A stretch of 64,000 bases of DNA, taken from assembly GCF_024171895.1 (NCBI RefSeq), contig NZ_JAMTCQ010000013.1, positions 1-64,000 on the forward strand. The letters are read 5' to 3'. The translations under genes were made by a program, and so were the position numbers. Below the pieces are notes generated by a model. It had not been told where the DNA came from. It ran no database searches and worked only from the letters and a program-made list of their open reading frames with translations. Shown in pieces: positions 37,539-42,921 of this stretch; position 1 is the stretch's first letter; each line of letters starts with the position of its first letter. The stretch comes from Prauserella halophila. Its GTDB lineage: Bacteria > Actinomycetota > Actinomycetes > Mycobacteriales > Pseudonocardiaceae.

Positions 37539-38594
37539 TCACCGTTCGTCGTCCGGCCCGGCCGGATCGACGGCCCTCTCCTCCGGAGCCGAGGCGTTGA
37601 GCTCCTCCGGAGCTGCGGCGTTGAGGTTCAACCCGGATTGGCCCACCACGCTCGGGTCGCGCTTGGCCTTGACGAGGCTCGCCACGGTGGTCGCGGTCAG
37701 CACGACGACGATGACGCCGAGGGACATCCAGTTGTTGATCTCCAGCCACGGCGGCGTGACGTGGTACTCGTGGAATGCGTGGAGCACGAGCTTCACGCCG
37801 ATGAACGCGAGGATGATCGCCAGGCCCTGCGACAGGTACACCAGCCTGCTCACCAGGCCGCCGAGCAGGAAGTACAGCTGCCGCAGGCCCATCAGCGCGA
37901 ACGCGTTGGCCGTGAAGACGAGGAACGCCTCCTGGGTGATGCCGAAGATCGCCGGGATCGAGTCGACCGCGAACAGCAGGTCCGCACTCCCGATCGCCAC
38001 GATCACGAGCGCCATCGGCGTCAGGTACCGCTTGCCGTTCCTCTTGACGACCGAGTGGTGACCCTCGTAGTCGTCGGTGACGCGGAAGGCCTTCCGCGTC
38101 AGGCGCGTGACCAGGTTCTCGTGGTACTCCTCGTCCTCGTCCTTCTTCCGCACCATGTTGATCGCCGTGAAGATCAGGAACGCGCCGAACAGGAAGAAGA
38201 TCCACACGACCTGCGCGATGGCCCACGCGCCGATCGCGATGAACACGCTGCGCATGGCCAACGCGATCACGATGCCGATCAGCAGCACGCGGTGCTGGTG
38301 GATCGCAGGCACCTTGAACGACGACATGATCACCATGAAGATGAAGAGGTTGTCGACCGACAGCGAGTACTCGGTGATGTAACCGGTGAAGAACTCGACC
38401 CCCGAATCGTGCCCGGCCAGCAGCCATATGCCGACGCCGAACACCACAGCACACCCGACGTAGAAGGTCACCCAACGAGCCGCCTCCCCGGTGGTGACCT
38501 CGTGGGGTTTGCGGTCGACGATGATCAGATCGATCGCAAGCAGCGCGATCAGACCGCCGATGGTGGCGGCCCACAGCCAGAACGGCACGGACAT
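37539..38594 (-). CDS. TerC/Alx-family membrane protein (probable Mn2+ exporter)
   Basis: This 351-aa integral membrane protein has about eight to nine transmembrane helices. The family's acidic intramembrane motifs are seen: SLSVDNLFIFMVIM (near residue 77) and SADLLFAVDSIPAIFGIT (near residue 205). TerC/Alx proteins are linked to Mn2+ export and metal loading of secreted enzymes. A cytoplasmic charged loop (RKKDEDEEYHENL) and a hydrophilic C-terminal tail are present. ATG 38594 has GGAGG 8 nt upstream. A yybP-ykoY riboswitch precedes it, supporting the Mn2+ role. Confidence 0.94.
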   Translation of the reverse strand: MSVPFWLWAATIGGLIALLAIDLIIVDRKPHEVTTGEAARWVTFYVGCAVVFGVGIWLLAGHDSGVEFFTGYITEYSLSVDNLFIFMVIMSSFKVPAIHQHRVLLIGIVIALAMRSVFIAIGAWAIAQVVWIFFLFGAFLIFTAINMVRKKDEDEEYHENLVTRLTRKAFRVTDDYEGHHSVVKRNGKRYLTPMALVIVAIGSADLLFAVDSIPAIFGITQEAFLVFTANAFALMGLRQLYFLLGGLVSRLVYLSQGLAIILAFIGVKLVLHAFHEYHVTPPWLEINNWMSLGVIVVVLTATTVASLVKAKRDPSVVGQSGLNLNAAAPEELNASAPEERAVDPAGPDDER

Positions 38595-38603
38595 CGACGA
38601 CTT

Positions 38604-38741
38604 CCTCCGGTCAGCGTGACGGTGCTATCCGGAGGTCTCTTCCACCCGCGGCCTGCGACAGGCACACCGGCCGGCGACACCGGGTGCGGCGGGAGCGCAA
38701 CCGTGCTGACGACGTCGCCGTGAGGGAATACTCCCCTCCGT
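38604..38741 (-). promoter_or_regulatory. yybP-ykoY manganese riboswitch of terC with Shine-Dalgarno-sequestering stem
   Basis: On the minus strand CGGAGG (38740-38735) begins P1 and is followed at once by the invariant GGGGAGTA. GTCGTCA and the 3' loop motif AAGAGACCTCC follow, ending P1 with CCTCCGG (38635-38629). CCTCCGG is also the exact complement of the terC ribosome-binding region CCGGAGG (38610-38604), with an 18-nt loop. Mn2+-stabilised P1 would free the ribosome-binding site; its loss would sequester it. Translational control of this kind is known for the alx and mntP switches. Confidence 0.85.
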
Positions 38742-38911
38742 GGGGAACAACCGTCCCATCCTGACTCCCCGGTAGGACCCGGCGCCACTTGTGGTGGCCG
38801 TCCGGGGTCATCACCACACACGTAACATCGGTCACACGAGACCGTCCCGACGCCGGAAACCGGGCATGCCCGGACGAACCGCCTGCGTCCCACCCCAATA
38901 GTGTGAGCACC

Positions 38912-41900
38912 GTGTCCCGCCTTCTCCACAGCCGCGGCCGCCGTCTGACGGCGCTGGTCGCCGTCGTCGTGCTCCTCGCCGCAGGCGGCCTCCTGTTGTT
39001 CCGTGACGGCGAGCGGCCGCCCACGTACCGCACCCAGGCCGCGACCATCGACGTCGCGACCTCCCCGGGGTCGTCCGAGCGCGAGCAGCTCGACACGACG
39101 GTCTACGTGCCGGAGGACACGCCCGCACCCGCCGTCCTGCTGCCGCACGGTTTCGGCGGCGACAAGGACAGTGTCGCCCGCGACGCCCGGGAACTCGCCG
39201 AACGCGGGTTCGTCGTGCTGACCTGGTCGGCGCGTGGTTTCGGTGACAGCACGGGCATGATCTCGCTCGGCGCACCCGACCGCGAGGTGGCCGACGCCTC
39301 CCGACTGCTCGACCACCTGGCCGGCATGCCCGAAGTGGTCTCCGACGACGACGGCGACCCGCGCGTCGGCGTGACCGGCGCCTCGTACGGCGGTGCGCTG
39401 GCACTGCTGCTGGCGGGCACGGATTCGCGGGTGGACGCCATCGCGCCTGCGATCACGTACAACGACCTGCGGCAGTCCCTGCTGCCGAACAACGCCACCG
39501 ACGGCCGACTCGACACGGCCACCCCGGCACCCGGCGCGGGCACGGAATCCGGCGTACTCAAGCGGTCGTGGATCGGCACGCTCTTCTCCGCGGGCTCGAG
39601 CGCCCCGTCGGCGACCGCAGGTGCGGGACCCGACGCCGTCGAACCCGGCGACGACGAGGAGAACGACGACCTCGCCGCACCACCGGGCCAGGCAGGCGAC
39701 ACCGGCTCGACGTCCGACGCAGGCCAGGGGCAGAGCGGCGCCGGGGGAAACACGCGCGGCGACGCCGGTGCGTGCGGCCGGTTCAGTGCCGAGGTCTGCG
39801 CGGCCTACGCCGACGTCGCGACCGACGGGGTCGCCGAACCGGAGACGCTCGACCTGCTGCACCGCGTCTCGCCCGCCTCCGTCACCGGTGACATCACCGT
39901 GCCGACGTTGCTGGTGCAGGGCGAACACGACACCCTGTTCGGTCTCGACCAGGCCGACGCCAACGCCCGCCAGATCGCCGAGGCGGGCGGCGAGGTGTCC
40001 GTCGCCTGGTACGCGGGTGGCCACGACGGCGGCGGCCCCGGCTCGAACCTGCGCGGTGTCATGGCCGACTTCCTCTGGCATCACCTGACCGGCGAGGGCA
40101 ACGACCCCGCTGCGCCCTTCTCCTACGACGTGACCGGTGCATTGCGCCCCGACGGCGCCCCGTCGGTCCGTAACGTCGAAGCGGGCTCCTATCCCGGCGT
40201 CAACGGCGACGACGTCGGGCGCCGGACCGTGCGGCTCCTCGGTGAACAGCAGACCGTCGTACGCCCGCCCGGCGGCACCCCCGCCTCGGTGAGCGGCATC
40301 CCCGGGCTGAACCGCGTCGTGTCGGGCTCGTCCCGGTTGTCGAGCCTGTTCACCCTCGATCCTCCCGGCCAGTCCGCCGTGTTCACGTCGCGGCCCATGA
40401 CCGAGCAGCTGCTCGTCTCCGGCGCGTCGACGGTGCGACTGTCCATCACGCCCGAGCCCACGCAGGCCGCCACCGGCCGCAACGCCGACGACACCGGCGG
40501 TACCGGCAACGAATCCGGGCAGGAGGACGGCGACTCCGGGCGGGACGGCGGCTCCGGGCAGGAGGACGCGAACCCGAGCGCCGACGCACCGGGCGCCGGC
40601 GCCCCGTCCGAGGCGGTGCTGTTCGCCAAGCTGTACGACGTCGGCCCCGACGGCACCCGCACGCTGCCCGGCAACGCCGTGTCACCGATCCGGGTGCCGC
40701 TCGCCGACGACGGCTCGCCGACCGAAACGACCGTCACGTTGCCCGGAATCGTCCGGCCGGTCGAGGCCGACCACCGGCTGCAGCTGGTGGTCGGCACGAC
40801 GGACCAGTCGTACACCACTCCCGACCAGCCCGCCGCCTTCCGCGTCGCGCTCGCCGGCCCACCCGAGGTGGCGGTACCGGTGGTCCCGGGTACGGCGGCG
40901 ACGTCCGGGTGGCCGGTGGCCCAGCTCGCGGGCGTCGGCGGTGCACTCGCCCTCGCCGTGCTCGTGGCCGCGATCGGCAGGATCCGCCGCAGGCGTTCGC
41001 ACCGCATGGACCCGGAGCTGGCCGACACCCCGATGGTGATCTCCGGGCTGACGAAGTCCTATCCCGGTGGGCTGACCGCGGTCAGCGACCTCTCGTTCCG
41101 GGTCGAGCCCGGCCAGGTGCTGGGCCTGCTCGGGCCCAACGGCGCGGGCAAGACGACGACGCTGCGCATGCTGATGGGCCTGATCTCGCCGTCCGACGGC
41201 GAGATCAGGGTGTTCGGCCACCGGGTGACACCGGGCGCGCCGGTACTGTCGCGCATCGGGTCCTTCGTCGAAGGCTCCGGGTTCCTGCCGCATCTGTCGG
41301 GCGCGGCGAATCTCGAACTGTTCTGGCAGGCGACCGGCCGCCCCACGGACAAGGCCCACGTCGACGAAGCCCTCGAGATCGCCGGGCTGGGCGATGCGGT
41401 GCACCGCAAGGTCCGCACGTACAGCCAGGGCATGCGGCAGCGCCTGGCCATCGCACAGGCGATGCTCGGGCTGCCGGAACTGCTCGTGCTCGACGAACCC
41501 ACCAACGGGCTCGACCCGCCCCAGATCCACCAGATGCGCGAGGTACTGGGCCGGTACGCGGCGACGGGCCGCACGGTCGTCGTGTCCAGCCACCTGCTGG
41601 CCGAGGTGGAACAGACGTGCACCGACGTCGTCGTCATGCACCGCGGCAGGCTGATCGCATCCGGCGGCGTGCACGACATCATCGCCGCGGGCGGCGAGGC
41701 CACGTTCCGCGTGGACGACGCGGAACGTGCCGCGGAGATCCTGCGCGGGCTCGACGGCGTGTCCGACGTGGAGATCGCCGACGGCCTCGTGCACGCCGAC
41801 CTCGACGGCCTGCCGCGCAGCGAGGCCGTCGCGGCGCTGGTGCGTGCGGACGTGTCCGTGGAACAGGCCGGACCGCGGCGCAGGCTCGAAGACGCGTTCC

Positions 41901-41929
41901 TGCAACTCGTCGGAGAAGGTGAGGGCTGA
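38912..41929 (+). CDS. Membrane-anchored CocE/S15-type hydrolase fused to an ABC transporter ATPase
   Basis: This 1005-aa fusion begins with a transmembrane helix (LTALVAVVVLLAAGGLLL, residues ~12-30). A CocE/S15-type alpha/beta hydrolase follows, with Ser158 in GASYGG, Asp340 in QGEHD and His371 in AGGHDGG, then a beta-rich domain. A second transmembrane helix is LAGVGGALALAVLVAAI (residues ~670-690). The C-terminus is a complete ABC ATPase with Walker A GPNGAGKTTT (Lys747), signature YSQGMRQRL and Walker B LVLDEPTNGLDP. The topology fits an outside hydrolase and an inside ATPase. Two Gly/Asp/Ser-rich inserts interrupt the hydrolase half. The start could be GTG 38912 (7 nt after TAGTGT) or GTG 38903. 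Its stop overlaps the permease gene. Confidence 0.88.
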   Translation: MSRLLHSRGRRLTALVAVVVLLAAGGLLLFRDGERPPTYRTQAATIDVATSPGSSEREQLDTTVYVPEDTPAPAVLLPHGFGGDKDSVARDARELAERGFVVLTWSARGFGDSTGMISLGAPDREVADASRLLDHLAGMPEVVSDDDGDPRVGVTGASYGGALALLLAGTDSRVDAIAPAITYNDLRQSLLPNNATDGRLDTATPAPGAGTESGVLKRSWIGTLFSAGSSAPSATAGAGPDAVEPGDDEENDDLAAPPGQAGDTGSTSDAGQGQSGAGGNTRGDAGACGRFSAEVCAAYADVATDGVAEPETLDLLHRVSPASVTGDITVPTLLVQGEHDTLFGLDQADANARQIAEAGGEVSVAWYAGGHDGGGPGSNLRGVMADFLWHHLTGEGNDPAAPFSYDVTGALRPDGAPSVRNVEAGSYPGVNGDDVGRRTVRLLGEQQTVVRPPGGTPASVSGIPGLNRVVSGSSRLSSLFTLDPPGQSAVFTSRPMTEQLLVSGASTVRLSITPEPTQAATGRNADDTGGTGNESGQEDGDSGRDGGSGQEDANPSADAPGAGAPSEAVLFAKLYDVGPDGTRTLPGNAVSPIRVPLADDGSPTETTVTLPGIVRPVEADHRLQLVVGTTDQSYTTPDQPAAFRVALAGPPEVAVPVVPGTAATSGWPVAQLAGVGGALALAVLVAAIGRIRRRRSHRMDPELADTPMVISGLTKSYPGGLTAVSDLSFRVEPGQVLGLLGPNGAGKTTTLRMLMGLISPSDGEIRVFGHRVTPGAPVLSRIGSFVEGSGFLPHLSGAANLELFWQATGRPTDKAHVDEALEIAGLGDAVHRKVRTYSQGMRQRLAIAQAMLGLPELLVLDEPTNGLDPPQIHQMREVLGRYAATGRTVVVSSHLLAEVEQTCTDVVVMHRGRLIASGGVHDIIAAGGEATFRVDDAERAAEILRGLDGVSDVEIADGLVHADLDGLPRSEAVAALVRADVSVEQAGPRRRLEDAFLQLVGEGEG

Positions 41930-42921
41930 TGAGCGACTCCGAACGCGGTACCCCGGAGCCGTCCGGCGCCGCAACGGCGCACCCGCACGCGGTGGACCAG
42001 CACGGCGTGCACACCGACCCGGCCGCGCTGGACGAGCTCACCGACGTGGCCGGGGCGGAACCGGCCACGGGATCCGGGCCGGACGGCGCCGTCACCGGCT
42101 ACCGCCCAGCCCGGACGCTCCGGCTCGGCGTGGAACTGCGGAGGCAACTGCGCAGACGGCGCACCCAGCTGCTGCTGGCGTTCGTCGCGCTACTGCCGTT
42201 CATCCTGGTCGCGGCGTTCGAGATCGGCGAGGCAGAAGCCGACCCGCGCTCGGGCGGGTTCATCGACCTCGCCACTGCCAGCGCGCCCAACTTCGTCGTC
42301 GTGGCACTGTTCGTGTCCGGCTCGTTCCTGCTGCCGATGATCGTGGCGCTGTACTTCGGCGACACGATCGCCAGCGAGTCGTCGTGGTCGAGCCTGAAGT
42401 ATCTGCTGGCGATACCCGTACCCCGGCACCGGCTGCTGCGGCAGAAGGCGATCGCGTCGGCGCTGCTGTCGGCCCTGGCGATCGTGATCCTGCCCCTGTC
42501 GGCGCTCGTCGCGGGAATGATCTGGTACGGCGCGGGCGAGGCGATCAGCCCGACGGGCGATTCGATCCCGTTCGCGGACAGCCTCGTCGCGCTCGCACTG
42601 GCGACGGTGTACCTGATCGTCCACCTGGCGTGGGTGGCCGGGCTGGCACTGCTGCTGAGCGTGTCCACCGACGCTCCGTTGGGCGCCGTCGGCGGCGCCG
42701 TGCTGGTCTCGATCCTGTCGCAGATCCTCAACCGGATCACCGCGCTCGGGGACCTGCGGGACTTCCTGCCGACCCACTTCTCGTTCGCGTGGATGGACCT
42801 GATCGCCACCGACATCGAGTGGACCCGCATGGCCTCCGGCGTCCTGTCGGCGACACTGTTCGCCACGGTGTTCGGGCTGCTCGCGGCCCGGCGGTTCGCG
42901 ACGAAGGACGTCACGAGCTGA
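41929..42921 (+). CDS. ABC transporter permease (ABC-2 type)
   Basis: This 330-aa protein has a hydrophilic N-terminal ~65 residues and then six transmembrane helices, starting at TQLLLAFVALLPFILVAAF. IASESSWSSLKYLLAIPVPRHRLL is a typical ABC-2 coupling region. ATG 41929 overlaps the stop of the hydrolase-ATPase fusion as TGATG. It is surely the membrane partner of that ATPase. The transport substrate is unknown; drug/peptide export or membrane remodelling are possible. Confidence 0.9.
   Translation: MSDSERGTPEPSGAATAHPHAVDQHGVHTDPAALDELTDVAGAEPATGSGPDGAVTGYRPARTLRLGVELRRQLRRRRTQLLLAFVALLPFILVAAFEIGEAEADPRSGGFIDLATASAPNFVVVALFVSGSFLLPMIVALYFGDTIASESSWSSLKYLLAIPVPRHRLLRQKAIASALLSALAIVILPLSALVAGMIWYGAGEAISPTGDSIPFADSLVALALATVYLIVHLAWVAGLALLLSVSTDAPLGAVGGAVLVSILSQILNRITALGDLRDFLPTHFSFAWMDLIATDIEWTRMASGVLSATLFATVFGLLAARRFATKDVTS

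Follow-up and report, generated by a model that had tools for sequence, protein, structure and literature searches.

A predicted alx-like Mn2+ riboswitch of the yybP-ykoY class in the terC leader of Prauserella halophila

The leaders of Escherichia coli alx and mntP have both been described as manganese-regulated members of the yybP-ykoY riboswitch class (PMC9603457). According to the structural account in PMC6754395, Mn2+ is contacted through N7 of an adenosine in L3, namely A41 of the Lactococcus lactis RNA (Llac; UCAAUUC) and A48 of the Xanthomonas oryzae RNA (Xory; ACAUACU). Since the leader of Corynebacterium glutamicum terC was placed under RF00080, the Rfam family of this class, in 2013, an actinobacterial terC gene with a switch of this class was already known. 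Here we describe the terC leader found in a 64,000-nt stretch of the P. halophila genome (the window). On sequence grounds it is highly likely that this leader acts in cis as an alx-like Mn2+ riboswitch of the yybP-ykoY class, which we infer to be specific for Mn2+ and to work in the ON direction.

The gene itself lies on the minus strand at 37539-38594, starts with the ATG at 38594 and encodes 351 aa with a clear TerC domain (Pfam TerC, E 7.1e-49). Its product shares 38% identity with E. coli Alx across 296 aligned positions, and the nearest named relatives are the TerC proteins of five Prauserella species (89-91%) and one Saccharomonospora (89%). TerC is a target of the Mn2+-homeostasis type, as is characteristic of the yybP-ykoY class. 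All elements of the leader are carried by the minus strand: GGGGAGTA at 38736-38729, the 3' motif GAAGAGACCTCC ending at 38631, and CCTCCGG (38635-38629) and CCGGAGG (38610-38604), which are exact 7-nt complements of each other; GGAGG is separated from the ATG by 9 nt. The first-pass annotation had named these same elements, and each of them was recovered in its place. A three-part pattern derived from the leader and its relatives has one match in the window and none in 100 Markov surrogates of 64 kb, while CCGGAGG would occur by chance in about 0.9% of random 60-nt stretches. The folding energy of the single sequence is unremarkable (z 0.06 and -0.79), and folding statistics of this kind were dropped as uninformative. 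A search of 38540-38960 revealed neither a terminator-like nor a sigma-70-like site.

Several other features of the window were noted in passing. A palindrome-like sequence, TGTGACCGATGTTACGTG, lies at 38836-38819 (minus strand), about 77 nt upstream of the aptamer, and it resembles a CRP-type site; among 13 upstream regions, that of the window included, the TGTGA half is present in 12 and the GTTAC half in 11. On the plus strand, a long open reading frame at 38789-41929 fuses an S15-type alpha/beta hydrolase and an ABC ATPase domain in one frame; an ABC-2 membrane gene comes after it (41929-42921). The window edge cuts the 5' end of a 16S rRNA gene (122-1, minus strand).

The leader was compared with those of 98 terC loci, consisting of the window's genome, 29 relatives (one locus each) and 68 loci on named contigs; these are best TerC matches, so that paralogues are incompletely represented, and 11 of them are identical repeats of others. 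The aptamer motif (GGRRAGTA and GAGACCTC at the right spacing) is present in 97 of the 98, the sole exception being Mycobacterium kyorinense (L093); one locus, L038, has the variant GGGAAGTA. Because loci were selected by the pattern GGRRAGTA followed 60-135 nt on by GAGACCTC, the near-invariance of these two motifs is partly due to selection. Selection did not involve L3, P1.2, P3.1 or P4, and the Shine-Dalgarno pattern served only to set the row ends. The 85 distinct aptamers were reduced to 55 at 90% identity and to 54 after leaving out L026, a divergent leader in which the aptamer is present and the Shine-Dalgarno complement is poorer. In the resulting alignment (A1), CCTC(C/T)GG and CCGGAGG are kept in all 54 rows. 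The proposed pairs are formed in 98.6% of 1402 cells, compared with 37-63% in control structures slid along the same alignment. Two-sided changes affect 12 of 26 pairs (62 cells), a level of covariation reached by none of 500 shuffles.

RF00080 has no match at gathering score in the window and none at E ≤ 10 in the terC leader, where the gathering cut-off of 45 bits was not reached. Across the whole genome it finds nothing at E ≤ 0.001 and, at E ≤ 1, a single 26-nt stretch elsewhere (E 0.76). Fourteen related loci chosen from the 98 have no Rfam family at gathering score. A search with this model had been proposed in the first-pass annotation, the lack of a hit being regarded as a refutation. 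The search was indeed negative, but the same model also misses E. coli alx (nothing at E ≤ 0.01 in 501 nt, nor at E ≤ 10 in 151 nt) and finds E. coli mntP at 41.6 bits, below the cut-off of 45. Because alx is missed too and mntP falls under the cut-off, the absence of a match is not diagnostic, and its use as a refutation was rejected after these two controls.

A covariance model built from 35 of the 54 A1 leaders (R1) gave a different picture. The whole aptamer (38629-38742, minus strand), which is conserved in relatives and is itself one of the 35 rows, scores 90.7 bits (E 1.1e-19), L026 scores 51.4 bits, and the RF00080-type actinobacterial leaders L099-L102 score 26.7-58.9 bits; other sites of the window reach at most 15.7 bits. 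R1 also finds E. coli alx (35.8 bits, E 2.4e-6), thus connecting the leader by homology with a member described as Mn-regulated, and gives no match with E. coli mntP at E ≤ 10. As R1 finds alx and not mntP, the terC leader groups with alx, on a side of the class that RF00080 covers poorly, and on sequence evidence it is very probably a member of the yybP-ykoY class. A new class or specificity variant, considered in view of the missing P2 and the altered L3, was dropped once R1 found alx.

In an alignment of 102 wider R1 matches, fitted to the R1 model, 96.1% of 2536 cells are paired and 22 of 26 pairs show two-sided changes (445 cells; 0 of 500 shuffles reach this level). A first wide alignment of 92 matches was made without L026, L224, L225, L227, the RF00080-type L099-L102, L182, L183 and many near-copies. 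The third position of L3 is A in all 92 of these matches and in 98 of 102 after the ten named loci were restored. R1 fails to align L3 as a 7-nt bulge in L099, L100 and L227, and in L225 a stretch of 13 nt stands at L3, with C at the third-position site.

The leader, 38742-38629 on the minus strand, folds into P1.1, L1 (GGAGUA/GAGA), P1.2, P3.1, the L3 bulge and P4, without P2. The 5' strand of P1.1, CGGAGG (38735-38740), pairs with 38635-38630, and this helix is 97.8% paired in the 54 leaders and changes on both sides in five of six pairs of the wider matches. The L1 internal loop closes P1.1, with GGGGAGUA on its 5' side and GAGACC on its 3' side. The 5' strand of L1, GGAGUA (38729-38734), is GGAGTA in 53 of 54 leaders (partly selected on), and its 3' strand, GAGA (38636-38639), is present in all 54 (selected on). 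P1.2 consists of UUCC (38725-38728) paired with GGAA (38640-38643); covariation is seen in both sets, with two-sided changes in one of four pairs in the 54 leaders and in all four in the 102 wider matches. P3.1 is formed by GGCGACGUCG (38710-38719) and its 3' strand (38673-38682), which covary in the 54 leaders, with two-sided changes in 6 of 10 pairs. The variable P3.2 and its loop occupy 38683-38702, and their first two pairs (GG/CC) are formed in 100% of the 54 leaders. The P4 hairpin (38645-38670) shows two-sided changes in all four basal pairs; in the window sequence its third pair is G.G. The two legs expected of the class, P1.1/P1.2 and P3.1/P3.2, are thus backed by covariation.

Between the legs, L3 is a 7-nt bulge, UCAGCAC (38703-38709), with A at the third position in all 54 leaders. 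By its place in this bulge, A38707 is the positional counterpart of the Mn-contacting adenosine A41/A48. The P2 hairpin that stands between P1.2 and P3.1 in the four-way junction of Llac and Xory was not found here, and its place is taken by a 5-nt junction linker (38720-38724). Five is the commonest linker length (51 of 102 wider matches, as aligned to a P2-less model), and the linker extends up to 14 nt in this set. The identification of the aptamer as yybP-ykoY made in the first-pass annotation therefore stands, being borne out by conservation and covariation, with the refinement that the P2 hairpin of the Rfam consensus is absent.

The distal strand of P1 is shared with a second structure. 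In CCUCCGG (38629-38635), nucleotides 38635-38630 form the 3' strand of P1.1, and the whole is an alternative anti-Shine-Dalgarno, with OFF pair probabilities of 0.88-1.0 without ligand. Its partner is CCGGAGG (38604-38610), the ribosome-binding region of terC and the exact complement of 38635-38629. P1.1 (38740-38735 with 38635-38630) and the Shine-Dalgarno hairpin (38635-38629 with 38610-38604) use one strand and are mutually exclusive. The 18-nt spacer of the OFF hairpin lies at 38611-38628; in it UAGC (38627-38624) can pair with GCUG (38615-38612), with pair probabilities of 0.87-1.0, and this extension is weakly kept, 14-26 of the 54 leaders being unpaired at each pair.

In every one of the 54 leaders the Shine-Dalgarno region finds its complement in the 3' strand of P1.1. 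Since CCGGAGG is invariant among these, joint change was examined in the wider matches, of which 94 have at least 70 nt downstream and 53 of these a P1 3' core other than CCTCC. In the 53, which include alx and six RF00080-type elements and contain related leaders that are not independent, the longest helix with the own downstream region averages 7.72 bp, compared with 6.57 bp when downstream regions are exchanged (maximum 7.06; 0 of 1000). Helices of at least 7 bp are formed by 40 of 53 with their own region and by 25.5 on exchange (maximum 34; 0 of 1000), and 13 of the 53 lack a 7-bp alternative helix. Without G-U pairs (61 matches) the mean helix is 4.92 compared with 4.39 (maximum 4.80 of 2000 shuffles), and helices of at least 6 bp number 19 compared with 9.8, which is below the largest shuffle value of 20. 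In L150, L160, L175, L176 and L179 P1 and its downstream complement depart together from the common sequence. The overlap of P1 with the anti-Shine-Dalgarno and their mutual exclusion, as first annotated, are thus conserved, and P1 and the downstream strand covary in distant relatives. Such complementarity of P1 to the Shine-Dalgarno region, maintained through joint changes, is what a translational ON platform would show.

In the computed OFF fold the 5' strands of L1 and P1.2 (38738-38724) can pair with each other in a small hairpin, and such a hairpin occurs in 83 of the 86 wider matches (of 92) in which the L1 pattern was found. It was not adopted as a second switch, as P1.2 covaries with its 3' partner; the hairpin probably arises without selection because the P1.2 strands are pyrimidine-rich.

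The proposed mechanism is as follows. Mn2+ would dock L1 on L3 and stabilise P1.1, which would hold CCUCC; the terC ribosome-binding site would then be open and TerC made. Without Mn2+, CCUCCGG would pair with CCGGAGG and initiation would be blocked. Computed energies, which leave out tertiary contacts, favour the OFF state in all 54 leaders, by a mean of 12.4 kcal/mol and by 10.6 kcal/mol in that of the window; the energy model contains neither the non-canonical L1 pairs nor docking. For relatives, affinities of about 30-55 uM are cited, as is a value of 7 nM for mntP (PMC9603457). In free energy, a Kd of tens of micromolar corresponds to about 6 kcal/mol and one of 7 nM to about 11.6 kcal/mol. 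Given the far greater computed stability of the OFF hairpin, the choice is probably kinetic and would be made once the polymerase has passed the end of P1 but has not yet reached the Shine-Dalgarno. As described for a transcriptional member of the class, P1.1 folding depends on a nearby polymerase (PMC11087558); on the modelled energies, the terC leader may well make its choice kinetically, during transcription.

Other explanations of the leader have to be weighed against Mn2+-dependent translational control. The leader could respond mainly to alkaline pH, or jointly to pH and Mn2+, as reported for alx and mntP. TerC is a relative of Alx and R1 groups the RNA with alx, which is described as pH-responsive (PMC3874183), and maximal switching of mntP is described as needing both Mn and alkaline pH (PMC9603457). 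The L3 adenosine, however, is retained in all 54 leaders and in 98 of the 102 wider matches, and cation ATPases and exchangers are among the targets of the wider matches; we leave this explanation a real but small chance. Somewhat less likely again is transcriptional control by early termination, possibly factor-dependent, instead of control of ribosome access. Xory and related members in single-molecule studies are described as acting by antitermination (PMC6754395, PMC11087558), and in three of the 54 leaders the hairpin is followed by 8 nt of which six are T, so that termination may occur in these, but 38540-38960 is without a terminator-like site and the Shine-Dalgarno lies within the 3' strand of the hairpin in all 54.

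That the aptamer is a specificity variant recognising another metal or ligand is improbable. The four L3 residues that follow the conserved A do differ from those of Llac and Xory, P2 is missing and RF00080 gives no match; against this, alx, with a very similar L3 (UCAUUAC) and a 6-nt linker for P2, is described as Mn-regulated (PMC9603457), and the target here is TerC. Chance GC-rich hairpins without a regulatory role would agree with the unremarkable folding energy (z 0.06 and -0.79), but are hardly credible in view of the covariation and clade-wide conservation, the absence of the motif from 100 surrogates and the poor pairing of the slid controls (37-63%, compared with 98.6%). A Mn2+ riboswitch of the alx-like form is accordingly the reading that we prefer.

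Of the genomes scanned, R1 at E ≤ 0.01 has matches in 186 of 249 from the order, in 77 of 148 from the class and in 76 of 396 from the phylum. These counts are lower bounds, since the filters were strict and between 10 and 26 candidates were scored in each genome. RF00080 matches 9 of the same 148 class genomes at E ≤ 0.01, none over the cut-off, and in the order 16 of 101 genomes at E ≤ 1, again none over it. Two of the nine (G665 and G764) are missed by R1, so that the two models complement each other. A second R1 copy in the window's genome (L171, G000:C5:302177-302280; 42.7 bits) precedes another TerC gene (46% identical). In this copy the P1 strand is CCTCGAA, for which the downstream sequence offers a perfect complement of just 4 nt. 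Among 53 downstream open reading frames of the wider matches, 28 encode TerC (probably a lower bound, as the longest downstream frame was taken by a crude rule), five P-type cation ATPases and four Na/Ca exchangers. In L172, L173 and L185 tandem R1 switches stand about 1.2-1.5 kb apart, each ahead of an open reading frame. A literature search by titles and abstract openings, covering few subscription journals, showed among the entries listed no account of the element in Pseudonocardiaceae and no report of an alx-like form missed by Rfam.

It can be tentatively hypothesized that Mn2+ riboswitches occur in two forms, the mntP/Xory form, which has P2 and is covered by RF00080, and the alx/terC form with a P2-less three-way junction. 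The latter would be a common and largely unannotated Mn2+ control of actinobacterial terC and cation-pump genes that switches kinetically through an OFF hairpin far stabler than P1. We hold this possibility at somewhat less than even weight, since L101, L102 and L183 are mixed: in the R1 alignment they combine GGGGAGUAGCC and an ACAUNCU L3, as in RF00080, with a 5-7 nt linker replacing P2. The alx/terC and mntP/Xory forms may thus grade into each other. As a switch the terC leader is ordinary, and its interest comes from the widespread and missed alx-like form. It adds a probable Mn2+-responsive control of the metal protein TerC in an actinomycete and exposes a blind spot of RF00080, which overlooks relatives of this leader although they are common among actinobacteria. 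A P2-less aptamer that retains the L1-L3 site would show how far Mn2+ sensing depends on the four-way junction, and the compact platform, with one strand for P1 and the anti-Shine-Dalgarno, would make a clean case for kinetic switching.

Among the known systems, E. coli alx shares with the terC leader the L1 signature (GGGGAGUA/GAGACC), P1.2, P3 with a 7-nt L3 bulge (UCAUUAC), a TerC-family target (38% identical) and the replacement of P2 by a short linker, 6 nt in alx, which is too short for a hairpin, and 5 nt here. It differs in P1.2 (ACUU/AAGU in alx, UUCC/GGAA here), and P4 is shorter here. In P. halophila the Shine-Dalgarno region follows 18 nt past the P1 strand, whereas the computed fold of alx has two post-aptamer hairpins, the first of which uses the P1 strand. 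E. coli mntP and X. oryzae yebN share the L1 signature, the P1/P3/P4 plan and the L3 adenosine (for Xory, PMC6754395), but mntP differs in having GGGGAGUAGC, a P2 hairpin and the L3 sequence ACAUACU in the RF00080 alignment; RF00080 finds mntP and not the terC leader, while for R1 the reverse is true. The L. lactis yybP-ykoY RNA (4Y1I) shares the initial UCA of L3 (UCA41AUUC; PMC6754395) and is built on a four-way junction, whereas the terC leader has no P2 and carries a Shine-Dalgarno-sequestering platform. C. glutamicum terC (cg2157), as described in PMC3890552, is likewise an actinobacterial terC, whose leader has been placed in RF00080 (49.13 bits with the model of 2013) and whose 5'-UTR was seen by RNA-seq.
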